A stretch of DNA of 64,000 bases, from assembly GCA_012523035.1 (NCBI GenBank), contig JAAYJH010000113.1:1-64000 (forward strand), written 5' to 3'. Source of the DNA: Fibrobacter sp. GTDB taxonomy: Bacteria; Fibrobacterota; Fibrobacteria; Fibrobacterales; Fibrobacteraceae. This document shows positions 16,881-62,101 of this stretch, piece after piece. Each line of letters starts with the position of its first letter. The first letter of the stretch is position 1. The position numbers and the translations under genes were made by a program. A model generated the notes under the pieces. It was given only the letters and a program-made list of their open reading frames with translations. It made no database searches and was not told the origin of the DNA.

Positions 16881-18953
16881 TTAGCGAGGCCCCGCCTCCA
16901 TTTGAATTCGTCTAGCCAAACTCGATTTTGCCTTATCCAAAATATACTTGTAACTAGGCTTAGAGATTGCATCTTCAAAAACACCATCACTCCAAAGCAG
17001 CCAATCCCCTAAACTAAACACCTTTGCATTTTCTTTTTTGATTGTATTTTCTACATTGAAAATATTTCCTTCTAAATAGCATGTAGCTAAGTTTAGACAC
17101 TGCAACGCATAATCCTCTGTACTCACAAAAAAGTTATTGTAATAATGAGCAGGATTTCCATGATTTAGAATTGCAGAAGACTCTAAGTCCACAAAATAAT
17201 TGTGATGAGCGGTAAAAAACTCCATAGTATCGTGATAAATTTCTGGATTCAGCCCAAGCAAAATAGCATGACCACTATTTTGAAATCTAGACCAAGAAAC
17301 CGTCACCGAGTCCGACTTTCGCTTCACATCCATAAGCACTAGAGGATAATCTTCGAACAAGCAATGATCCACCCACACATTTTTACTTTGATTGTGAATC
17401 GAAAGAGCCCGTCTAGAAGTGGAATCTTTCTCTGTAATGGCTGGCGAAGTAAAGTGTAGATTTTCAAAAATCAAATGCGATGCAGAGTCCGCCAAAATAC
17501 CCATCCCAGCAATTTTAACTTGGCGGCCTCTACCATCTATGGTTTTAAAAGACTTGATTCGAAGCGGGGCACTCAATCTATAAAGCCCATCCTTTTCAAA
17601 CTGTATCCAAACGGGCTCTTCTTTCATAGCACATTCCCTTAAAGAGCCTGGTGCTACTGTATAAGACTCATCTTCATTTTGCAAAATATCCTCTTCGGTT
17701 TTCACAATACAAATAGAGCCCCCCGCCCCTCCTTGAGTCTGGAGTCCATACCCTTCTACTTCTTTTAATAAAACATCATGTTTGGACCAATCTTCTCCGG
17801 GAAACTCCGATTTTTTTGACTCCAGAAGATTCATTTGGAGCTTTTCCAAATCTTTTGCAGCCAAAGGAGCCATAGAAATATCATCTAAAAACACATTTTT
17901 AGAAGTCGTACTAAAATAAATTCGATTCAAAGTTAAATTCTTGTTTTTTGCTTTTCCTAACCCTTTCATTTCGGCTATAGCTATCGCATAAGAAGTCCAA
18001 TTCTTTTGTAAAATCACAGTATCTACCAAAGCGTTTTCCAAATCACCATATTCTCCATAGGCAAGCCCCACTACCATAGAACCACTACCTTTAGCAGTAA
18101 AATAAAGAGTATCCACAGACTCTAAAATATAAGTAGAGTCTATAGAGCCAAAATAAAAGCCAAAATAATCTTTAAGGTGCACACAAGATCCAGCAACACA
18201 ATCCTTCCCTCCGACAAAAGGCTGCATAGAAGTGGGAGTCCAAAGTGGTGTCAAGTTTTCTCTTTTGTAATCCAAACTAAACCAATAAGCATCTCCCAAA
18301 TACGCTGCCGTTTTAGCATAACCTAAAAAACCTTCGAAATCTTCTAAAATAAAAGCTTTAGTCACCTCAAATTCTATTTCTAAATTCTCCACTCCAGTTT
18401 CCACATTTAAACTTAAACTTCCTTTATTGGACTGACTCTCTATCCAAAGATTAAAGATTCCTTCTGGCAAAGAATCTATAGTAAAATACCCAGAACTATC
18501 GGGAACCACAAATCGTTCTAAACCTGCAATCCTTATCACAGAAGGGCCTTCTCCCTTAGCTATTTGACCTTCTATAGAAGACAAATTAAATAAACTCAAA
18601 GAGTCCAAAAACTTCTTTTCTTTTTCTTTGATTTGAATTTCTTCTACTGCCCCCAAAGCAAGCTCTGCACTAGCATAACGCAATTCTATGGTATAAAAGC
18701 CTGGCTCCACATCCACGAACTCTATTTTGCCATTTTTATCTGTGTTTAGCCATGGTTTTTCATCTTTACCATTAGACATATAGCTAGAACTTAAAAATCG
18801 AACGCGAACGACACTCAAATCCACATCGCTTGGAGCCACCACTCGAAGAGCTATGGTAGACTCTGCCTCTGTACCGCCTGCAACCTTAGAAGAACAGGAC
18901 AACAGCAAAGGGATAAAGAGACTCAAGACAAAGAATGTGTTCATTTTAGACAT
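16881..18953 (-). CDS. lipoprotein with PL1-like pectate lyase fold, active site degenerate
   Basis: A 690-residue lipoprotein (lipobox LLLSC, Cys20). In order: two carboxypeptidase-regulatory-like beta domains (about 30-110 and 125-195), a CBM11/CIA30-like jelly roll beginning ILEDFEGF (about 202-362), and a PL1 right-handed beta-helix (about 405-690) with GSLRECA, TIDGRGRQVKI, NVWVDHCLFEDY and TAHHNYF. The PL1 identity is clear, but the catalytic arginines that follow HHN in active PL1 enzymes (RxPxxR) are replaced by Ser593 and His598, and the HDK lysine and one calcium-site Asp also appear lost. It may therefore bind rather than cleave pectate. The gene overlaps the stop of the TIGR02147 regulator by 8 bases and has GGAG inside that gene, so the two are coupled. 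Last gene of the pectin locus. Confidence 0.78.
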   Translation of the reverse strand: MSKMNTFFVLSLFIPLLLSCSSKVAGGTEAESTIALRVVAPSDVDLSVVRVRFLSSSYMSNGKDEKPWLNTDKNGKIEFVDVEPGFYTIELRYASAELALGAVEEIQIKEKEKKFLDSLSLFNLSSIEGQIAKGEGPSVIRIAGLERFVVPDSSGYFTIDSLPEGIFNLWIESQSNKGSLSLNVETGVENLEIEFEVTKAFILEDFEGFLGYAKTAAYLGDAYWFSLDYKRENLTPLWTPTSMQPFVGGKDCVAGSCVHLKDYFGFYFGSIDSTYILESVDTLYFTAKGSGSMVVGLAYGEYGDLENALVDTVILQKNWTSYAIAIAEMKGLGKAKNKNLTLNRIYFSTTSKNVFLDDISMAPLAAKDLEKLQMNLLESKKSEFPGEDWSKHDVLLKEVEGYGLQTQGGAGGSICIVKTEEDILQNEDESYTVAPGSLRECAMKEEPVWIQFEKDGLYRLSAPLRIKSFKTIDGRGRQVKIAGMGILADSASHLIFENLHFTSPAITEKDSTSRRALSIHNQSKNVWVDHCLFEDYPLVLMDVKRKSDSVTVSWSRFQNSGHAILLGLNPEIYHDTMEFFTAHHNYFVDLESSAILNHGNPAHYYNNFFVSTEDYALQCLNLATCYLEGNIFNVENTIKKENAKVFSLGDWLLWSDGVFEDAISKPSYKYILDKAKSSLARRIQMEAGPR

Positions 18954-19842
18954 TTTTAGTCTCCTTTATTCCAGATTTTGATCTTCTTATTTTCCTTTCT
19001 TTACCCTTTGAATGCCCCTCATTTTCTAATCCTTTACTCATAGGAAAAAGCTGCATCCCGAGTTGATAGATTCGGTCTGTTTGTTTAGAGTTTTGTACTT
19101 TTCTCAAAACTTCTTTTCTAAAATCTCGCATCATTTTCACCACTTCTCCATAGGTTTTTTTATCACAAGAAAAAACCAAAGTGGATAAATTTCGTTCTTG
19201 ATTAGAAAATCGTTCCAGAGCCGTGGTGGCTATTTTCAAGTTTTGTTGTATGTATTGATTCACTTCTGTTTTATGAGAATCAAAGCCACTACTAATGAAG
19301 CCCTGACTTTGTTCAAATCGACCCTTTTTGTTTTTTTGAATCAAAGACAAACGCTCCAAAAGAATGATGGATTTTTTTACCTGCGACACCGTCAATGGAG
19401 GCTCCACCATCGAAGCCATCGCTCTAAAGTCCGCTTGGTTTTCGACCAACACCAAAAGTTCTCGAAGCACCGCATGATACCACTTATCAAAATATTCAAA
19501 TTGGTCTCGAAGCAATGGATGCACTTCAAAATCCTTGGATTCCACCAAGCGTTCCAAATAAAAGCGACTTTCTGAATGTGTTTTAGCCTGATTAAAGTAC
19601 ACCAAATTTTTAAAATACTCTTTCTCAGCAAGATGAATGCAAAATAGATCTGCAAAAGCATCAATTAAACGAGGAGTCAAATCGCGAGACCCTTGCAAAA
19701 TTTTACTAAACATCGAGGCATCCATTTTGATCATAGAAGCTATATAACGATGACTAAAATGCCAATCTTCTGCATGCCTTTGCTGGTATGCATCTCTTAA
19801 AAACTCTCTGTAGTTTAAGTATTTAAAAATTGAAATTGACAT
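18946..19842 (-). CDS. TIGR02147/DUF4423 family putative transcription regulator
   Basis: A 298-residue member of the family described as Fibrobacter paralogous family TIGR02147. The N-terminal ~80 residues (IFKYLNYREFLRDAYQQRH, FSHRYIASMIKMDASMFSKI, LTPRLIDAFADLFCI) look like a Cro/C1-type helix-turn-helix; the rest is the DUF4423 alpha-helical part, ending in the shared IYQLGMQLFPMSK motif. DNA binding is a family-level expectation, not shown here. AAAGGA precedes the ATG. It lies within the pectin operon after the CE12 genes (65-base gap that could hold its own promoter) and overlaps the PL1-like lipoprotein gene. The same arrangement occurs at 59.2-61.6 kb. Confidence 0.85.
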   Translation of the reverse strand: MSISIFKYLNYREFLRDAYQQRHAEDWHFSHRYIASMIKMDASMFSKILQGSRDLTPRLIDAFADLFCIHLAEKEYFKNLVYFNQAKTHSESRFYLERLVESKDFEVHPLLRDQFEYFDKWYHAVLRELLVLVENQADFRAMASMVEPPLTVSQVKKSIILLERLSLIQKNKKGRFEQSQGFISSGFDSHKTEVNQYIQQNLKIATTALERFSNQERNLSTLVFSCDKKTYGEVVKMMRDFRKEVLRKVQNSKQTDRIYQLGMQLFPMSKGLENEGHSKGKERKIRRSKSGIKETKNV

Positions 19843-19907: not shown

Positions 19908-21653
19908 CTAATCCCTTGCACTTTTGACACGCAATTTTTGTTCCAATAAAACTTGTCCATTTTGAACTCCTTTGATAAAATAAGTACCCGAAGCCAAAAC
20001 ACTCAGCAAACGATCTTCCTCTAAAGAAGAATTCTTTTGTTGAAGAACGCAAACTCCTTGCGCATCAAATACAAAAATAGACATCACTGGATTCATTGGC
20101 GTTTTATTTTTTGAATTTTTAACAACGCTTGTGCTTAGACTAGGCCGTGTCAGTCCAAATACACTAAAGCCTATAGCATCTATATTTGGCCCACCTTGTT
20201 CACTCTCTGACTCCAAAACTAGGGGCATTGTCACAGCATCTATCCACACCCCTTCTACAAAAAGTGTATCCCATGTATCCCAACTCAATGTAGGAGGAAA
20301 CGAAAGTAAATAAGTCCAACCATCAAGAGAAAGTTTCATATTTCTAGCGTCTGGAGTGCCATTGGCATATCGAATCGCAAGCACTGCATTGGTCGAAGCA
20401 TTTTTAGATTCTAACTGATAAAAAGCCTGGCTTCCCCAAAAATTATCTATATTCCAAAAACCGTCACCTGTAAAACCTTCATGGTTCGTATCGGTGCTAC
20501 CAGAACCAGAATCTGGATTTGCCATATCCACCCAAGATAGAATTTCAATTGGATTTTGAACAACACTACTAGAAGAGGTGATACTTTCACTGCTAGAAGA
20601 TGGTGGTGGAGTCGCTTCTACACAAGTAGATCCCCCCTTAAAGATGGCTGTATAAGTGGTCGCTTTGTCAGGAGCTTTTATTCCATAATAAATTTTAGAT
20701 CGAGAAACTTCCTTGCAATTTTCATCGGCCCAGTATTCAAAGTTATCTCCTTCCGCTGCTTTGACTCGTAATGTCAAGGGAGCCCCAGCGGGGAACAAAG
20801 CCGTCTTCGAAAGTATTCCAGAAATATTTTTGTTTGTTTTCACTTCCACTGGATGAAGAGGTTTCAGTGCATTGATCAAAGGCAATAGACTGGACTTTGC
20901 TTCGTTTGACAAGTGAGTGGCCGATGATAGTGAAGCAATCTCTTCAGCAATCCATCTGGAATTGCTCACAGAACCATTTTCTTGAAAATGTGTACCATCA
21001 TTGGAACCTTGCGGCCAATTGGGATAATCTTCTGGTTCATAACTATGATATATAAAAGAACTAATATAAGAGAAACCCCAACTTTTTAAATCTTCATAAG
21101 ATTTGGTGTTTAGATCTAAAAAAGCGACATCTCTTTTTTTGGCGAGATTTTCCATCACTCCACGATAATCAGAGCCTTCTTCTGTAAACACATTACGCAT
21201 CTGATCGTTTTTCCAAGCATTCATCACCATGGGAGAGATTAAGACAGGAATTGCATTCCAACTTTTTGCTGAATCCAAATAGATTTCTAAAAAGTAAGAA
21301 AACGAATCCAACGGCACCTGACGAGCATTGGTGCCAAAATAGCGATCATTGTGGCCGAATTGAATGAACAGATAATCTCCTGCTTTGACTTGAGATTTTA
21401 AAGAATTTAAACGGCCATCTGTGAAAAAAGTTTTAGAGCTCCTCCCGCCAATCGCTACATTGTTAATCTGAGCTCGATCAGAGTGAAAAAAAGAAGCTAT
21501 GACTTGCCCCCATCCTGTCTGTGGATAAACCGATTGATTATAAGTGGAAACTGTCGAATCACCAATCACATGAATCGTAAAAGAAGAAGGATTCGTCTTC
21601 GCTATATTGACCAACACAAATAAAAGAAATAAGCTTGTGAGTATTTTTTTCAT
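19908..21653 (-). CDS. secreted CE12 rhamnogalacturonan acetylesterase with CBM and sorting domain
   Basis: SGNH-fold esterase expected to remove acetyl groups from rhamnogalacturonan I. After a signal peptide (about 1-20) the four blocks are visible: HVIGDSTVS (catalytic Ser), IGGRSSKTF, FGHND, and the Asp-His pair in NDGTHFQ. A beta domain like an InlB-type bacterial repeat follows (about 270-345), then a Ser-rich linker, a CBM6/CBM35-like module (about 368-500; FTGDGFWNIDNF, RYANGTPDARN, GGPNIDAIGF), and a ~70-residue C-terminal domain of type IX secretion sorting style (SIFVFDAQGVCVLQQ ... LASGTYFIKGVQNGQ). Starts 11 bases after the next CE12 gene. Substrate assignment rests on the family and the neighbouring PL11 lyase. 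Confidence 0.86.
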   Translation of the reverse strand: MKKILTSLFLLFVLVNIAKTNPSSFTIHVIGDSTVSTYNQSVYPQTGWGQVIASFFHSDRAQINNVAIGGRSSKTFFTDGRLNSLKSQVKAGDYLFIQFGHNDRYFGTNARQVPLDSFSYFLEIYLDSAKSWNAIPVLISPMVMNAWKNDQMRNVFTEEGSDYRGVMENLAKKRDVAFLDLNTKSYEDLKSWGFSYISSFIYHSYEPEDYPNWPQGSNDGTHFQENGSVSNSRWIAEEIASLSSATHLSNEAKSSLLPLINALKPLHPVEVKTNKNISGILSKTALFPAGAPLTLRVKAAEGDNFEYWADENCKEVSRSKIYYGIKAPDKATTYTAIFKGGSTCVEATPPPSSSSESITSSSSVVQNPIEILSWVDMANPDSGSGSTDTNHEGFTGDGFWNIDNFWGSQAFYQLESKNASTNAVLAIRYANGTPDARNMKLSLDGWTYLLSFPPTLSWDTWDTLFVEGVWIDAVTMPLVLESESEQGGPNIDAIGFSVFGLTRPSLSTSVVKNSKNKTPMNPVMSIFVFDAQGVCVLQQKNSSLEEDRLLSVLASGTYFIKGVQNGQVLLEQKLRVKSARD

Positions 21654-21664
21654 AGCAATACCTT

Positions 21665-23461
21665 TTACTGAACATGGATTAACTTAGATGATACCCGTTT
21701 TGAGTTTTGATAAACCAGCACATAATAAACTCCAGCCGCATGCAGACACTCTTTCACTTGTGTCAATGGGTCAATCCCCATTGTGTTTTCATTTTTTTGA
21801 ACCAAGAGTTTTCCATGCAAATCAAACACAGAGATTTGAATGTGTCCTTTTTGGGAGTTTAAAATTTCTAAACTTTTAATGGGACTAGGCTCTTCGCTTT
21901 GTCGTTTAATGTTTTCCATATTAAATCCAAACATATCAATATTAGGGCCACCTTCATCACTCATAGAAATAAACTCCAAGATGCCTTCTCCACTGATTAA
22001 ATTCAATTCAAACAAAACAGTGTCCCAAGTAGTCCAACTTCCTGTGGGTGGAAAATCGATATAATAATCATGATCCAAATAAATGTTCAAAGGTCTATTG
22101 TTTTGACCACCATTTGCATAAATAATACCCATCGTCGCTTGTCCTGCATTTGGAAAGGACATTTTATAATTTGCAAAAGAAGCTTTTTCATTTTGAAAAT
22201 TCCAAAAGCCTTTTCCGTGAAAACCTGTATTATTGAATTCAGAAAATCCATGGCCTGTATCTGGCATAAAAGCATCAAAAACACTTTTGAACTTAAACTC
22301 CATCATCGAAGAAGAGCTACTTTCTATTACAAGATCTGAACTACTAGAGCTGTGAATATTTTGTTCTAAAGTTTTTGGAGTACCCACAGGAAATTCTGTG
22401 AGAGCACTTCCATCACCTGTATATAAAACTGCAGAACCTCCTTCATAGACAGCCGTATATTGAGTCGAAGAGGACTCCATGACCAGTGTATGAATGTAAG
22501 GAGAAAGTACTGAAACTATACTATTTCCACTGACTTTTTGACCTTGACCATTGTACCAACCCAAAAACTTTTTTCCATTTTTAGGAGTGGTTTTTAAAGT
22601 GACGGTCATTCCTTTTGGGTAATAAGCACTCACCGAAGTGAATGAATCTGCACCCACTGGGCTCACCTTCACGGCGACTTGATACATTGGCACCAAAAAA
22701 TCAGAGAGTTTTTTAACATTTAAATCTTGGTGCACTCGAATTTGTTCCGTGACAATACGGCCCATCGCGTTTGCACCATTTTGTTGTAAATGTTGATTAT
22801 CAGTTTGAACAGAACTGTAATTGGTATATTCTCCTTCATCTAAAAACATATTGATATAGTGATTAGAATAATAGGGTCCAAGAGAAATAAGCAAATTACG
22901 AGAAAGTGTATCTAAATCAATTAAAGGCACCTTCAAAGAATCTGCTACTTGCCGCATAAAAATGGGGTAAGCATGATACGACTCATAAATAGAGTCCAAT
23001 GAAGTGAAACTAGAACGACGAATAGGAGTGAGTAAAATAGGAAAAGCTCCTTTCTCTTGACTTTGCTTGACCATGGCACCGATACTTTTTTTAAAGTTTT
23101 CTTCGCCTGTTCTATAGCCGTTATCATTGGCTCCAAACATGATCATTACATAATCCCCTTTTTGGATCAAACTCGACACAGCCGGATAGGTGACGCCATT
23201 TTTAGTGAAGCCTTGACTCCAATGCCCATCGTAATAAGTTTGAGAAGTCGTCCCTCCACGACCTGCATTATACACATCCACAAAGGCGTTATTAAAAAAG
23301 TAGGCAAAATCTTGCCCCATCCCTTGTTTAGGGTAATAGCCTAAAACCCAATCTTGCATGGTAGAGTCACCACACATATAGATTGTGATTTTAGCCCAAA
23401 TATTAGTGTACAAAACTAAGAATATTAGCACGATAAAACTAAAAAGTTTTATTTTTTTCAT
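21665..23461 (-). CDS. secreted CE12-like esterase with CBM and sorting domain
   Basis: Second CE12/SGNH enzyme of the locus, with the same architecture as its neighbour but diverged. Signal peptide about 1-23; blocks YMCGDSTMQDW, NAGRGGTTSQTY (GRGGT in place of GGRS), MFGANDNG (GAND in place of GHND), and DNQHLQQNG as the Asp-His block. A bacterial-repeat-like beta domain is followed by a Ser-rich linker, the same CBM6/CBM35-like module (about 405-530; FHGKGFWNFQ, YANGGQNNRP, GGPNIDMFGF) and a sorting-type C terminus (IQISVFDLHGKLLVQ ... AAGVYYVLVYQN). It sits 24 bases after the PL11 gene in the same operon. The altered oxyanion blocks suggest a different acetylation site or substrate from the other CE12. 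Confidence 0.83.
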   Translation of the reverse strand: MKKIKLFSFIVLIFLVLYTNIWAKITIYMCGDSTMQDWVLGYYPKQGMGQDFAYFFNNAFVDVYNAGRGGTTSQTYYDGHWSQGFTKNGVTYPAVSSLIQKGDYVMIMFGANDNGYRTGEENFKKSIGAMVKQSQEKGAFPILLTPIRRSSFTSLDSIYESYHAYPIFMRQVADSLKVPLIDLDTLSRNLLISLGPYYSNHYINMFLDEGEYTNYSSVQTDNQHLQQNGANAMGRIVTEQIRVHQDLNVKKLSDFLVPMYQVAVKVSPVGADSFTSVSAYYPKGMTVTLKTTPKNGKKFLGWYNGQGQKVSGNSIVSVLSPYIHTLVMESSSTQYTAVYEGGSAVLYTGDGSALTEFPVGTPKTLEQNIHSSSSSDLVIESSSSSMMEFKFKSVFDAFMPDTGHGFSEFNNTGFHGKGFWNFQNEKASFANYKMSFPNAGQATMGIIYANGGQNNRPLNIYLDHDYYIDFPPTGSWTTWDTVLFELNLISGEGILEFISMSDEGGPNIDMFGFNMENIKRQSEEPSPIKSLEILNSQKGHIQISVFDLHGKLLVQKNENTMGIDPLTQVKECLHAAGVYYVLVYQNSKRVSSKLIHVQ

Positions 23462-23485: not shown

Positions 23486-26092
23486 TCAGCGAATGACACT
23501 GATTTTGCTACGAGCGATAATTTTTTGATTTAGAGTCACTTGAACCCAATAAATCCCTTGATTCCAAGAATTGGAGTTCAATGGAACAAAAGTTTCTCCA
23601 GCTAAAACATTCCTTGTCAAAGAAGAAACTTTATTGCCTAACATATCATAGACGCAAATTTCAACAAGTCCATCAGAAGATGTTTTAAGGATTCCTGTAT
23701 TAGGCTGATAAGCATTGACGGTGTAGACTTTTTGATTCATAGAAGTGCGATCTTCATACAAAACGATACCCTTTTCACTAAAGCCAAAAACATCGATATT
23801 AGGCCCACCATCACTCATCATAGAGTTAAATTTCAACTCATTTTTAGCTTCCTTTAATGGGATGGTCACAGATACTGTTTCCCATGAAGTCCAACTCCCG
23901 GTCCCTGGAAATGAAATTGTCTTTGCATTTTCACCGTTCACAAGTAAAGTCATATCACGAGAGGCTGTGCCACCATTTGCATAAGTGATGCTAAGCGTGA
24001 CACTCGAGGCTGCCTTTGGAGAATAAATATTCCACACTCCATAACTACTGAGAGAATTGTTGAAATTATAATAACCATCTCCTGTAAAGCCTAAATTAAG
24101 GTCTTCAAAAACACCCTCCCCTTCATCAGGATAGGCTGCATTGACCACAGACAAAATATTAGACGAGTTAGGACTCGAAGAAGAACTGTTTGGCAAAGGA
24201 GTTGAAGATGAACTTGAAGGAGGAGTAGAGCCGGTGTTGGGGTTCACTAAGTAAACATCTGGAGGAGTGATTCCATTTTTAACCGCATCGGGTAAAAAAT
24301 ACCCTAAATGCGGAGGTTGGTTATACGCCACATTTTGCCAAGCAATTGAAACTCGGTAATGAGGGTCGTGCATCAAAGTATAAACCCTGTGAGGCGAAGG
24401 AATGGTCGTTGTAAAAATATTTATCTGGGCGGGGTTGCTGGAGTTCATGTAGATCACTTCTTCTCGCCAGTCTCCAAAAAGATCTGCAGACAAATTTGGA
24501 GTTGATTTGGTTCCATTGATAGCCACCGAGCCATTCATATTAAAAGTGAACAAACGAGAGACTCCATTTCCATTCCATTTGTCTACCTTAGGGCCATTTG
24601 AACTTCCTGTCACATCTAAAAGCTCATCGTACAAATCTCCGTCCCAGTATATTCTAAAGTTGACTGAAGGTTTATTTGTGGAAATCACCTTTCCTTTCAC
24701 ATTGAAAACTTCTGAACCAGAGGCACTCCAAAGTTCAAAACCTCGATGAGTGGAATCGATATCTGCTGCCAAACCACGGCCATTGTCAGTGCCCGTTTCT
24801 TTTCCAAACAAAATTTTCCCATCGGCACCTCGAAGTGTATACCCATAGGCCGAACTTTTACTTTCGTAGACATCCCAAACTTCTAAACCAGGGACATCGG
24901 GGTCTAAATCCGAAACATGCAAGGCATCTCCATGCCCCAAACCTGTCCTATACAAAAGACTACCATCGTGTTTTAATGCAGCAGCTCCATAAACAATATC
25001 GTCATACCCATTTCCATTCAAGTCAGCCACACTCAGCTGATGATTCCCTTCTCCAAACAAACCTTGTCCTGAGCTTTCACTTTTATGAAACCACCTTTCG
25101 CTTAAAGATTTACCATCAAAATCATAAGCCACCAAATAAGCTGCAGTATAATAGCCTCTAGCCATAATCAAGCTCGGTGTTTTGCCATCTAAATACGCAA
25201 TAGCAGCAAGCATTCGCTCGGAACGATTTCCATAATTGTCTCCCCATTGACTGGTGGTGCGAACATTTCTATTAGGCTTGTAATCAATGGTCGTGATTGC
25301 CGCTCCAGTACGCCCATCAAACACAGTTAAAAACTCATTGCCACTCATAATAGTCCCGCTAGAAGTTCGATAATCTGCATTCGCATTTCCAATCACTTTT
25401 CCTGTGCCATCCACAGTAGCATCACTGGTTTTCATCGCAATCTCGGCAAAGCCATCACCGTCTAAATCATAAACCATAAATTGTGTATAATGAGCTCCCG
25501 CTCGAATGTTTCGACCTAAATCAATACACCACAACTTTTTTCCATCGAGTTTATAGGCATCGATATAGACATTCCCTGTATAACCACTGTGAGCATTATC
25601 TTTTGCATTGGAAGGGTCCCATTTTACAACGAGCTCGTACTCTCCATCACCATCTAAATCCCCAACACTCATATCACCAGGAGTATAAGTGCAAGTAGAT
25701 CCATCGGGCATAGTCAATGCCTTTGGCCTGTCTAAATTCAGGACTTTATATTGCTCTGCCCAGACACTCACTTCTTTTGACTTTTCTTTTTCTTCTCCTG
25801 CAATCACAGCACTCACTGTGTACTTAGCAGAAGCATTTCCAGAAGCGTCTGTATAGTTTGTGGGTTCTGTTGCAGAAATCGTTTTTAGCAAAGTATTGTT
25901 TTTATAGACATTAAATTGTGTGTTAGGGGGATCAGAAGCCAAAAGCCTCCAACTTAAAAAAACTCCCCCTGAAACTTTAACCGCCACCAAGCCACGGTCC
26001 AAAAACTCCATTTGACGAGGAGCTGCTACACTCGTAGAAAAAGCTACCAGTAGCAAAAACATTAAAAACGAGTTTAAGAATTGACGACCCAT
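23486..26092 (-). CDS. secreted PL11 rhamnogalacturonan lyase with CBM and sorting domain
   Basis: Beta-propeller lyase of the YesW/YesX family that cleaves the rhamnose-galacturonate backbone of rhamnogalacturonan I. I start it at the ATG at 26092 (MGRQFL): the strong GGAGG lies just inside an upstream in-frame ATG, which therefore cannot be the start. Signal peptide about 1-24, then the PL11 opening MEFLDRGLVAVKVSGGVFLSW and calcium-binding repeats such as DLDGDGEYELVVKWD, DLDGDGFAEIA and DLNGNGYDDIVYG. A Ser/Pro linker leads to the CBM6/CBM35-like module (FTGDGYYNFN, YANGGTASRD, GGPNIDVFGF) and a sorting-type C terminus. First gene of the five-gene pectin operon. Confidence 0.92.
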   Translation of the reverse strand: MGRQFLNSFLMFLLLVAFSTSVAAPRQMEFLDRGLVAVKVSGGVFLSWRLLASDPPNTQFNVYKNNTLLKTISATEPTNYTDASGNASAKYTVSAVIAGEEKEKSKEVSVWAEQYKVLNLDRPKALTMPDGSTCTYTPGDMSVGDLDGDGEYELVVKWDPSNAKDNAHSGYTGNVYIDAYKLDGKKLWCIDLGRNIRAGAHYTQFMVYDLDGDGFAEIAMKTSDATVDGTGKVIGNANADYRTSSGTIMSGNEFLTVFDGRTGAAITTIDYKPNRNVRTTSQWGDNYGNRSERMLAAIAYLDGKTPSLIMARGYYTAAYLVAYDFDGKSLSERWFHKSESSGQGLFGEGNHQLSVADLNGNGYDDIVYGAAALKHDGSLLYRTGLGHGDALHVSDLDPDVPGLEVWDVYESKSSAYGYTLRGADGKILFGKETGTDNGRGLAADIDSTHRGFELWSASGSEVFNVKGKVISTNKPSVNFRIYWDGDLYDELLDVTGSSNGPKVDKWNGNGVSRLFTFNMNGSVAINGTKSTPNLSADLFGDWREEVIYMNSSNPAQINIFTTTIPSPHRVYTLMHDPHYRVSIAWQNVAYNQPPHLGYFLPDAVKNGITPPDVYLVNPNTGSTPPSSSSSTPLPNSSSSSPNSSNILSVVNAAYPDEGEGVFEDLNLGFTGDGYYNFNNSLSSYGVWNIYSPKAASSVTLSITYANGGTASRDMTLLVNGENAKTISFPGTGSWTSWETVSVTIPLKEAKNELKFNSMMSDGGPNIDVFGFSEKGIVLYEDRTSMNQKVYTVNAYQPNTGILKTSSDGLVEICVYDMLGNKVSSLTRNVLAGETFVPLNSNSWNQGIYWVQVTLNQKIIARSKISVIR

Positions 26093-26390
26093 ACCATCCT
26101 CCATAAAAGTTTTTTAAGATTGCCTTCTTTTGACAATCTACTTTAATTTAAACTATTTATAAAAAAAGTCAACAGTTTTTCTCTAAATAACTGATGTTCA
26201 TAGAAAAAGAACTTAAGAATTTACTAAAAAAGTCTACACTTAAGGTTTTTATACCTCCATTAGACTTTAGTCCTAATTCAAAAGGAGACTTTTTCTCCAG
26301 TGCTATGACTTAAGACTGTAAAACTATTTTTACATTTTATCTAAGTTGAATATTCTAAGTTTAAGACATCCACAAAAGGGTCACACTAAA

Positions 26391-59176: not shown

Positions 59177-60745
59177 TTAATTTTTAACCGCTTTTTGAGT
59201 TTCATAACTCAAACGAATCCACTCCTGATTTCGAGCCACCGATTCTATCCTTATCTCATCTAAAACACCATTCCAGGTTTCGGTATCCACTTCGTTGCCC
59301 CCAATTCGTAATGGAACTGTTTCGGACAGAATTGCCGGAGCAAAAGGGCTAGACTCACCCTGAATTTCTCCATTTAAATAAACAGAAATAAAACCATCTT
59401 CAAAGACTAAATTCAGATAAGCCCATTCCATTAACGGAAGATTCAAATCATTTAACTTATTCCTTTGGTCATTGTGATTATAAACGGCAAAAACATCGTT
59501 GATATTGTCAAAATGCCATTGAAACCTAGAAGTTGAGTCAGACCAAAAGGAGCGTTGAGAAAATAAAATTTGATGCTGGTCGTTTTTACCATACCAATAC
59601 ACCCACAAAGATAGCGTGAAATCGCCTTCACAAGGGTCTAACAAGCCCAAATCTAAATACTGAGACTCTGCAAGAGAAAGCCCTTTGCCAATAAAACCAC
59701 TATCTGCTCGAATGGCCTTTCCTTGATGCACCACTAAATCCTCATCATTTAAATGCAGAACTGCCATCACTCCATCTTTTTCTCGAAATGGAGAGTTTTG
59801 CAATGCCTTTTGTTTGTTAAAAGAAAATACAAGGACAGAATCTTTGGATCGAATAGAATCAAGACGCACCCATAACAGGGCTTTTTTCAAGTCCGCATCC
59901 CAATAATCCACTTCAAAATCTATAGGATTTTTATCTGCATTAAGGATTTGAAATTCAAAAGAGTCCAGCCCATCTAAAAGTTCAAAAGACTTATTTTTTA
60001 TAGGCAATGGGAGCACAAAATTTTCAAAGTCTTGGGAGAGGGCAAAATCTTGGAGAGGGTAAGTTAGCCGTAAAATCTCTGTATTATTAGAAGCAATCTC
60101 TGGTGGAAGCTCTTCTAAGTCTATTTGGATGCCCTCAAAAGCAGAATCTTGATAATATCGGGAATCGGTGATTTCTAGCCACGATTCTACTGATTTTGCT
60201 TGGATTAAGTCTGGAAGTTGAAGTGAATCTCTAGTGTCTGTGGTTTTAAAAGAAAGGCGACTTTCTGCAATAGAGTCTCCATAAACAAGGGTTAAATCTC
60301 CTGAAGGGACTTCGCTGAGTTCAAAAGAACCATCTTTGGCTAGCAAAGTTTTTTGAGATTGCCCCACAATTCGAACCCAGCCCGAAGATTTATCTCTGAT
60401 TCGACTGAAAATCCGTTTGTGTCGGGCTAATTTTAAAGTATCCGAACTTTGGGATAAAATTGAAAAAGAATCCTTTTCTGCAAAAAGAATATAAGGCTCA
60501 GATTTAGAGATTCCTTTGAGCAAAAACTCACCTTTTTCGTTGGATCGAGTTTCTATAGAATCTGTAACACTGGTATCCTTCCAAGAATCCATATAAACAA
60601 GCACTCTAGCATTTGCCAAAGGCTTTCCATGGACATCTAAAACAAGTCCAGCGACTGAATTGCCTATATCCGTCACCCCTTGTGCTGTATCGGTAGAACA
60701 AGCTGCAATAAAAAAAATAAAAAAGCAAAGCCATAATCTTTTCAT
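59177..60745 (-). CDS. lipoprotein with DUF2341 and LamG-like lectin domains
   Basis: A 522-residue lipoprotein (FFIAACS, Cys16). A carboxypeptidase-regulatory-like domain (about 30-100; SVAGLVLDVHGKPLANARVLVY) and a second short beta segment (about 115-180) are followed by DUF2341 (about 230-320; FVLPLPIKNKSFELLDGLDSFEFQIL, ALLWVRLDSI). A concanavalin/LamG-type jelly roll comes last (about 330-510; FTLSLWVYWYGKNDQHQILFSQ, ISVYLNGEIQG, GVLDEIRIE). DUF2341-LamG pairs are common in surface proteins that bind glycans. No catalytic domain. Its ATG overlaps the TIGR02147 gene stop by 4 bases, the same regulator-lipoprotein pairing as at 16.9-19.8 kb. Confidence 0.82.
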   Translation of the reverse strand: MKRLWLCFFIFFIAACSTDTAQGVTDIGNSVAGLVLDVHGKPLANARVLVYMDSWKDTSVTDSIETRSNEKGEFLLKGISKSEPYILFAEKDSFSILSQSSDTLKLARHKRIFSRIRDKSSGWVRIVGQSQKTLLAKDGSFELSEVPSGDLTLVYGDSIAESRLSFKTTDTRDSLQLPDLIQAKSVESWLEITDSRYYQDSAFEGIQIDLEELPPEIASNNTEILRLTYPLQDFALSQDFENFVLPLPIKNKSFELLDGLDSFEFQILNADKNPIDFEVDYWDADLKKALLWVRLDSIRSKDSVLVFSFNKQKALQNSPFREKDGVMAVLHLNDEDLVVHQGKAIRADSGFIGKGLSLAESQYLDLGLLDPCEGDFTLSLWVYWYGKNDQHQILFSQRSFWSDSTSRFQWHFDNINDVFAVYNHNDQRNKLNDLNLPLMEWAYLNLVFEDGFISVYLNGEIQGESSPFAPAILSETVPLRIGGNEVDTETWNGVLDEIRIESVARNQEWIRLSYETQKAVKN

Positions 60746-61596
60746 TCAGAAGGACCTCCTTCTTTTAATATAGCTTTACTCATAGGATATAAAACGACCA
60801 TCAGCTCATAAATTTTTTCTACTGACATATCACTGGCGGCACGGCTTATGATTTTTTGTCGAGCTTCTTCCAAAACTTGAACCGCATAACGATAAGACTC
60901 TTCACTCATTGTCAAGGTTGTAAAAGTCGAAAACCGTTCATCTTTGCCTTTTGACTCAATGCTTCCAATGGCATGTTGAATATATTCTCTTCGTATTTGC
61001 CTCAGTGCAATGGGGGGTATTTTTTGGGCATTGAGCATATGAGAAGTGGTTTTATAAGTGTCGTCACTTGATTTTTCTATCAAAGCCCATTCTATTAGTT
61101 TTTTGACTGCCAAGCGGGCTTCTTCTGTAGTGATAGGAGGGTCCAAACTACGAGCTAATTTAATATAGTCGCCTTTCCAGTCCAAATGAACCACCAATTC
61201 ACGAAGCACTGGATAATACCATTTAGAAAAATAATCTTGTTGTTCGTGTTGGATTTGTGTGAACTCTAATTGCTGACGGATTTTTAAAATCTGATTCCAC
61301 GCATGGTCCCGTTCTTCTGGGTGTACCGCCTGATTATAAAACACAAGAGCAGAAAAATAAGACTTTTGCAAGTCTGTAAAAGAGACGGCTTTAGAAAACT
61401 TTTCAATGGATTTTACAGTAAAATTAAATCGGCCACGAATCACATTTAAACAATAAGAAGAGGAACTAAAGCCCGCTTTTGCTGCAAAAAAACGATGCGA
61501 AAAAACAGGTTTTAGCTTTTTTTGCTCTTCGAAATAATCTTTGAGGAAAACTCTAAAATCGTCGTAATCAAATAATCGCCCAATCACTTGTTCCAT
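60742..61596 (-). CDS. TIGR02147/DUF4423 family putative transcription regulator
   Basis: A 284-residue paralogue of the gene at 18946-19842. It shares the N-terminal pattern (LFDYDDFRVFLKDYFEEQK, FSHRFFAAKAGFSSSSYCLNVI, FTVKSIEKFSKAVSF), the middle VFYNQAVHPEE and the C-terminal IYELMVVLYPMSKA. The first ~75 residues look like a helix-turn-helix domain. A good promoter candidate lies upstream on the minus strand: TTGACT, 17 bases, TAAATT. No clear ribosome site is visible. Translation is coupled (ATGA) to the DUF2341-LamG lipoprotein. Confidence 0.85.
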   Translation of the reverse strand: MEQVIGRLFDYDDFRVFLKDYFEEQKKLKPVFSHRFFAAKAGFSSSSYCLNVIRGRFNFTVKSIEKFSKAVSFTDLQKSYFSALVFYNQAVHPEERDHAWNQILKIRQQLEFTQIQHEQQDYFSKWYYPVLRELVVHLDWKGDYIKLARSLDPPITTEEARLAVKKLIEWALIEKSSDDTYKTTSHMLNAQKIPPIALRQIRREYIQHAIGSIESKGKDERFSTFTTLTMSEESYRYAVQVLEEARQKIISRAASDMSVEKIYELMVVLYPMSKAILKEGGPSE

Positions 61597-61744: not shown

Positions 61745-61972
61745 TTATTTGCCGTGCCACCTATAGCCTTGACCTTCCATGCAAGCAATAATAAGGTCTC
61801 CCTGCTCTACCTGAGTCACCTTATTGATACCCACTTCATATTTGCATTTTGCTTCTGCAGTTTTAATGTCTTCTTTAGAAACGTTTTTTTTGTACCACCC
61901 ACTTTTTGCTGCACAAGATGACATGAATAAAGACAATAAAACAATACTGATGAACAGCCACTTATTTTTCAT
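61745..61972 (-). CDS. small lipoprotein
   Basis: A 75-residue precursor with start at the ATG at 61972 (MKNKWL), preceded by GGAG. The lipobox LFMSSC gives an N-terminal acylated Cys at about 20. The mature part reads GWYKKNVSKEDIKTAEAKCKYE ... CMEGQGYRW. This W..K....S..D...A...C ... CM..GY pattern is shared by many small envelope lipoproteins of unknown function, and the two cysteines probably pair. It is flanked by gaps of about 130-150 bases and looks monocistronic. Confidence 0.75.
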   Translation of the reverse strand: MKNKWLFISIVLLSLFMSSCAAKSGWYKKNVSKEDIKTAEAKCKYEVGINKVTQVEQGDLIIACMEGQGYRWHGK

Positions 61973-62101
61973 TTCCAAACTCCAAAATTTTCATAGATGG
62001 TGATTCATACAAAATATAATAAAAAATCCATCTAAAAGCAATAAAAACCTTCTTTTGGGATGATTTTGGTGAAAATATGCTAAAAAAGGGAGAAAAGGGC
62101 G

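Follow-up and report, generated by a model that had tools for sequence, protein, structure and literature searches.

The module 1 genes and their products

Two pairs of overlapping genes, each consisting of a gene for a regulator of the TIGR02147/DUF4423 family followed by a gene for a partner lipoprotein, are encoded on the minus strand of the 64,000-nucleotide stretch of the Fibrobacter sp. contig JAAYJH010000113.1 analyzed here (hereafter, the window). The pairing of these two types of genes in the genome under study is far above chance. In module 1, the open reading frames (ORFs) of the regulator (18946..19842) and the lipoprotein (16881..18953; lipobox with Cys20) have 8 bases in common (ATGTCTAA), and the GGAG ribosome-binding site of the lipoprotein gene falls within the 3' end of the regulator gene. 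In module 2, the regulator (60742..61596; TIGR02147 score of 214.6 bits) and the lipoprotein (59177..60745; CarboxypepD_reg and LamG domains), which was found in a genome-wide search for the N-terminal region of the partners, overlap by 4 bases. Both pairs had been described in an earlier note on this DNA and are borne out here: the module 1 ORFs are present as reported, including the overlap and the family assignment, and the second pair, at 59177-61596, is real.

The module 1 regulator is a clear member of the TIGR02147 (Fsuc_second)/DUF4423 (PF14394) family, with a TIGR02147 score of 279 bits (cut-off 50) over model positions 2-271 of 272 and an additional match to DUF4423. Its AlphaFold model (predicted local distance difference test score, pLDDT, of 90.6) consists of an N-terminal Cro/C1-like helix-turn-helix (HTH) domain, a helical middle part, a winged helix and long C-terminal helices. 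Foldseek searches with this model yielded weak local matches to HigA-like and MarR-like/MarR-type domains, and HTH_3 is matched in a Bdellovibrio homolog of the regulator (E 1e-4). By its modeled fold, the regulator is a predicted DNA-binding HTH protein. Neither a transmembrane segment nor a recognized ligand-binding domain was found in the family assignments, the AlphaFold model or the Foldseek matches, and the listed Foldseek matches include no TPR-type peptide-binding (RRNPP) regulator. No kinase, sigma factor or transmembrane partner is encoded beside the regulator in the neighborhoods of all nine modules of the genome. The earlier note had pointed to a missing transmembrane link and had described TIGR02147 as an expanded family of unsettled function. 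A first-look count gave up to 88 candidates within a single Fibrobacterota genome, and no functional study of TIGR02147 or DUF4423 was found in the literature searched. New with respect to that literature are the exported partner with its near-obligate linkage and N-terminal motif, as well as the probable operator and regulon described below.

The ectodomain of lipoprotein 1 is composed of several predicted modules, all encoded on the minus strand. Two CarboxypepD_reg/transthyretin-like beta-sandwich domains (approximately 18375..18857) correspond to the strands modeled by AlphaFold in residues 33-193 (pLDDT about 80). These are followed by a CBM11/CBM30-like domain (approximately 17859..18356), for which Foldseek matches to CBM11, CBM30 and CBM29 (among them 6r31 and 1wzx, probability about 1.0) were obtained on a low-confidence model, without a Pfam match; this domain is missing from several lipoprotein 1 orthologs. 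The C-terminal part (16971..17774) is a PL1-like beta-helix that matches Pectate_lyase_4 (E 7e-17) and VexL (E 6e-27), with the VexL alignment extending over about 240 residues. Because the AlphaFold model is of low confidence outside the N-terminal domains, the PL1 assignment rests on sequence. The domains proposed in the earlier note, PL1-like and two beta-sandwiches, were thus recovered, the CBM11-like one with the limits just given. The beta-helix resembles PL1 pectate lyases and VexL but lacks their catalytic RxPxxR region: the window protein and all orthologs that span the site have ESSAILNHG, LRGVLARHG, SNDGILSHG or similar sequences in place of the region with the catalytic arginine. 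The conserved replacement identifies the ectodomain as a putative pseudo-lyase, that is, a catalytically dead pectate-lyase fold.

Conservation of the pairing and the N-terminal motif

The genome under study (2.2 Mb, 125 contigs) encodes 9 TIGR02147 regulators. In 8 of the 9 cases, the partner lipoprotein is encoded directly downstream on the same strand, and in the remaining one (contig C103), divergently upstream; all 9 neighboring lipoproteins bear the motif described below. One of these regulator genes (L016, contig C5, 2886-3746) is interrupted by an in-frame TAG, indicating either a broken gene or an assembly error. TIGR02147 is represented in 113 of the 121 Fibrobacterota genomes and in none of the 14 control genomes; the compared genomes are partly incomplete and the families unevenly sampled, and gene and lipobox calls were made with simple scripts.

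The pairing was surveyed in ten family-level groups (f1-f9, f13), which contributed 181 distinct TIGR02147 genes. Of these genes, 172 are directly followed by a same-strand coding frame with an N-terminus that fits a model of the lipoprotein partners derived from the set, most commonly with a 4-base overlap (77 of the 172). For comparison, a lipoprotein is encoded downstream in 17 of 245 other close same-strand gene pairs (~7%) in 0.8 Mb of the complete genome G016. The enrichment survey proposed in the earlier note thus did not refute the pairing. Because the model was derived from the same 181 genes, it was retrained on Fibrobacteraceae only; at 10 bits, the retrained motif model recovered 76 of 89 partners in other families and was passed by approximately 10 of 713 controls (about 1.4%). 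These gene orders show that the arrangement of regulator followed by partner, with overlapping genes, is near-obligate.

Several departures from the common arrangement were observed. In L064 (354-7436), five consecutive lipoproteins follow one regulator; the extra four have a VAGGDSEE-like motif and lack the usual beta-sandwich domain. The regulators L013 (G000:C103, 3877-4725; G000 is the genome under study) and L057 (G033:C1, 7234-8082) are orthologous, 77% identical, and have no cognate downstream lipoprotein. In G016 (C1, 1722583-1723422), a regulator has lost its partner, and the next gene, on the opposite strand, resembles a mobile-element or PDDEXK-type gene.

The partners share the consensus C-x(3-20)-V-A-G-G-x-S-E-T-x-N, which follows the lipid-anchor cysteine at a flexible distance of about 3-20 residues. 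In module 1, the motif is AGGTEAESTIAL (residues 25-36; 18846..18881, minus strand), and it is unchanged in 12 of 12 lipoprotein 1 orthologs, whose overall identity to the window protein is 40-48% and whose signal peptides differ. The codons of AGGTEAESTIAL vary synonymously among these orthologs, which implies that selection acts on the protein and rules out a DNA-level element within the motif codons. The motif of module 2 is AQGVTDIGNSVAG (60647..60685, minus strand), with AGGVTDIGNSIAG in the G016 ortholog. Module 2 is preceded on its own strand by a gene for a small, motif-free lipoprotein of 77 residues (61745-61978).

Whole-genome searches with an 80-residue N-terminal model yielded exactly 9 matches below 1e-6 in the genome under study, each beside a TIGR02147 gene, with the next best match at 5e-4. 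Three matches for three TIGR02147 genes were found in G052, two for two in G054, and 12 (up to 3e-4) versus 13 in G016, where one regulator is partnerless. In seven TIGR02147-free genomes, the best match was 0.0013, and the usual form of the motif was not seen among the matches. Over 41 genomes of the family, the numbers of TIGR02147 genes and motifs are closely correlated (Spearman 0.93), with the motif undercounted, at the 1e-4 threshold of the N-terminal model, in genera with divergent partner classes. The motif was not found in other lipoproteins of the G016 sample (0.8 Mb of the complete genome). Its confinement to TIGR02147 neighbors in that sample and in the genome under study rules out a generic lipoprotein sorting signal. 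These matches show a partner-specific motif at the mature N-terminus that co-occurs one-to-one with TIGR02147 genes. In G041 (C1, 3391-3630), the motif is present in an N-terminus that is not accompanied by a listed TIGR02147 gene and may belong to an orphan partner.

After the motif, most partners contain one or two CarboxypepD_reg-like domains, whereas the distal domains vary widely. CarboxypepD_reg was recognized in 60 of 94 partners, and the recognized distal domains of these 94 proteins are mostly binding folds: LamG (16), NHL and other propellers, CBM4_9, LRR, Kelch and FISUMP. SusD or SusC domains were detected neither in the two window lipoproteins nor among the families shown for the 94 partners. 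In the envelope proteome of F. succinogenes S85, four carboxypeptidase-regulatory-like lipoproteins (FSU_2817, FSU_1088, FSU_2134 and FSU_0627), filed under peptidoglycan biogenesis, drop on cellulose (PMC6851124, Table 3). These four proteins may be partners of TIGR02147 regulators.

Similar gene pairs were found outside Fibrobacterota. On the Bdellovibrio plasmid AP029177, a DUF4423 regulator gene shares 4 bases with a gene whose product has a signal peptide; a contig scan of genomes with the plasmid protein as the query gave no match. An approximate, consensus-like probe detected nine genomes (G134-G142), nearly all labeled as Bdellovibrionota-type, with tblastn confirming all nine hits; each genome encodes 5-33 TIGR02147 proteins above the cut-off. 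In 20 regions from these genomes, a same-strand gene follows 16 of 18 TIGR02147 genes, nearly always with an export signal; some regulators, chiefly those found with the probe, lack a downstream exported gene and have a divergent one instead. Most of the mature partner N-termini, lipidated or not, resemble GGEIGNGK, GGTEVGSGGS, VGNGGDVV or GGTTIGNP. A strict pattern for such N-termini matches 7 of 14 signal-peptide-filtered partners, as opposed to 5 of the 113 exported proteins that served as controls (Fisher 2e-5), one of these 5 being a partner overlooked by the ORF filter. The paralogs with GNGG-type partner N-termini in G134-G142 possibly represent a large set of private regulons in predatory bacteria.

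Operator-like repeats and the predicted regulon

The module 1 regulator gene occupies the fourth position in a cluster of five closely spaced minus-strand genes. The first gene of this putative operon encodes a PL11 rhamnogalacturonan lyase (23486..26104; RGL11_C E 1.4e-206) with a CBM and a Por-type C-terminal tail. It is followed by genes for two GDSL esterases (21665..23461, Lipase_GDSL_2, and 19908..21653, Lipase_GDSL; partial PaeY match in each case), both probable pectin or rhamnogalacturonan acetylesterases, and then by the regulator and the lipoprotein. Three more modules of the genome under study adjoin genes for plant-wall enzymes, namely, GH9 (L015), GH10 and GH43 (L016) and PL11 (L013); the L016 module sits between GH10+CBM6 xylanase and GH43+CBM6 genes.

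Upstream of the regulator, nine module 1 ortholog loci of Fibrobacter contain direct repeats, TGTGGAC/TGTAGAC, 23-24 bases apart and mostly near a TATATT element. A matrix built solely from ortholog promoters of other Fibrobacter genomes ranked two operator-like sites at the promoter of the PL11 cluster first and second among all window positions: TGTAGACTTTTTT (26226..26238, minus strand), located 134 bases before the PL11 start, and TGTTGACTTTTTT (26162..26174, minus strand), which overlaps a possible -35 box. The pattern TGTNGACTTTTTT, which was written post hoc, once the window promoter had been seen, is found twice in the entire 2.2-Mb genome, only at this promoter. In two other Fibrobacter genomes, the same repeat is located upstream of the gene for a GH43 arabinan endo-arabinosidase, and three more matches fall inside ORFs. 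As far as can be judged, the putative sites located in promoters precede genes for either rhamnogalacturonan-I enzymes or the regulator itself.

Given the operator-like sites at the PL11 cluster and at the GH43 arabinanase gene, the module 1 regulator very probably controls rhamnogalacturonan-I degradation. In all likelihood, it binds the repeats and controls its own operon, here the PL11-GDSL-GDSL-regulator-lipoprotein cluster. The link to pectin suggested in the earlier note is supported by this gene context, by the conserved pseudo-lyase ectodomain and by the operator-like sites at pectinase promoters.

A different repeat was identified in the largest partner class (AGTATDTENT), in which GTGTTC copies recur at an 11-base spacing and a third one lies close to the start. 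The pattern has 13 exact instances in the sequence examined, every one of them upstream of a TIGR02147 gene. In nine of nine whole genomes, a single perfect site is present, invariably immediately before the regulator of that class, and near matches are about as frequent as with a reversed-pattern control. Because the single perfect site lies just upstream of the regulator's own gene, these regulators look like private autoregulators. For module 2, comparison of two orthologs revealed no clear repeat.

Possible roles of the exported partner

The best overall explanation of these observations, to which we give about an even chance, is that TIGR02147 proteins are soluble DNA-binding regulators, each dedicated to one operon and produced together with a tagged exported partner. 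The partner would be a regulatory input and not only an output, with its N-terminal motif read by the regulator or by a shared factor, and the ectodomain, in module 1 the dead pectate-lyase fold, would provide the substrate specificity of the module. The lipoprotein may be a sensor that signals to the regulator. Because the motif is found only in the partners, whether or not they are lipidated and whatever their distal fold, a module-specific reader is expected; the regulator is the only component regularly adjacent to the tagged partner. We tentatively suggest that the motif is contacted by the regulator while the partner is still a precursor, prior to or in the course of export, such that export of the glycan-binding partner feeds back on transcription of the operon; among routes that do without a transmembrane link, this would be the most economical. 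The broader proposition, a hitherto undescribed class of envelope-to-gene control, represented in two or more phyla and by up to tens of private modules in a genome, in which a soluble regulator with HTH and winged-helix domains reads the tag of an exported ligand-binding partner and sets one substrate-specific operon with no linked transducer, falls slightly short of an even chance.

This explanation has a counterpart in the export-coupled regulation of sigma28 by FlgM, the shared logic being a regulator that might register the departure of its partner from the cytoplasm. No sequence relation to that system is expected, and, unlike in FlgM/sigma28, the TIGR02147 regulator is itself predicted to bind DNA and its partner exits by Sec or as a lipoprotein.

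Several observations weigh against the explanation preferred here. The distances among regulators correlate only weakly with those among motifs (Spearman 0.26, compared to 0.20 for the next domain), and even this weak correlation could be explained by shared operon inheritance; co-adaptation of regulator and motif was accordingly set aside as proof. An adjacent partner is absent in 9 of the 181 cases, and the orphan group of L013 and L057 is retained beside PL11 genes without a cognate neighbor. One regulator may precede several lipoproteins, an arrangement that would equally suit a simple output role. Finally, pre-export contact by itself leaves the sensing of extracellular glycans unexplained.

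Among the alternatives, the one that survives best, although we consider it unlikely, is that the partner is an output only, namely, a surface lipoprotein of the surface glycan-binding protein (SGBP)/SusD type with the motif as a display or localization tag for dedicated envelope machinery, and that the regulator answers another cytoplasmic cue. Local regulators are commonly located ahead of their target genes, in L064 and L053 one regulator precedes additional lipoproteins with the motif, and the ectodomains look like glycan-binding proteins, all of which fits such a role. However, a display tag would have to be reconciled with the absence of the motif from the remaining lipoproteins of the 0.8-Mb G016 sample, with its occurrence after non-lipid signal peptides in Bdellovibrionota and at flexible distances, unlike a general sorting signal, and with the lack of a recognized ligand domain in the regulator. 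The export signals of Bacteroidota lipoproteins are similar in that a short motif is located just after the lipidated cysteine, but differ from the motif described here, which is limited to TIGR02147 partners, lies at a variable distance and is also present in non-lipidated proteins.

Systems that control polysaccharide utilization loci (SusR, or hybrid two-component regulators with SusD/SGBP) likewise combine a substrate-specific regulator with an adjacent surface glycan-binding lipoprotein and matching enzymes. Here, in contrast, no SusC/SusD, histidine kinase or transmembrane sensor is adjacent, and the regulator is a predicted soluble protein with HTH and winged-helix domains. The analogy to SusD/anti-sigma pairings drawn in the earlier note therefore holds for the logic only, given that no SusD, extracytoplasmic function (ECF) sigma or anti-sigma element adjoins the module.

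It appears still less probable that the partner is an envelope sensor whose ligand state is relayed to the regulator by an unlinked, motif-recognizing inner-membrane protein. The glycan-binding ectodomains and the match of gene cluster and regulon to the substrate are compatible with such a relay, and the motifs, as variations of one theme, could well be served by a common reader; the neighborhoods examined contain no linked relay gene, however, and a common relay would blur private specificity among up to tens of paralogs per genome.

The least likely alternative, which we regard as very improbable, is a peptide cut from the partner N-terminus, re-imported and read by the regulator, as in lipoprotein-derived pheromones and RRNPP systems, which also combine a cytoplasmic Cro/C1-type HTH regulator with an adjacent gene for an exported protein or peptide: the strict conservation of the motif inside ortholog groups, its differences between groups and the adjoining genes would fit, but the regulator model has no TPR-type domain or listed RRNPP match, and, as the signal peptides vary whereas the stretch after the cysteine, outside the signal peptide, is invariant, a signal-peptide pheromone ranks below direct reading of the partner's motif by the regulator.

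How plant-wall enzymes are controlled in Fibrobacter has been described as unresolved, with only a few regulators noted near cellulase genes (PMC3079729). One regulator, its probable operator, a probable rhamnogalacturonan-I regulon and a candidate sensor lipoprotein can now be named. The present analysis goes beyond the earlier note with the motif common to the partner N-termini, the probable operator and the presence of such pairs outside Fibrobacterota. The unannotated, heavily expanded TIGR02147 family becomes a set of predicted operon-specific switches, and the private N-terminal tag of their partners provides a handle on a possible new signaling route that is also represented in Bdellovibrionota, opening the way to study enzyme control in fiber-digesting Fibrobacter.

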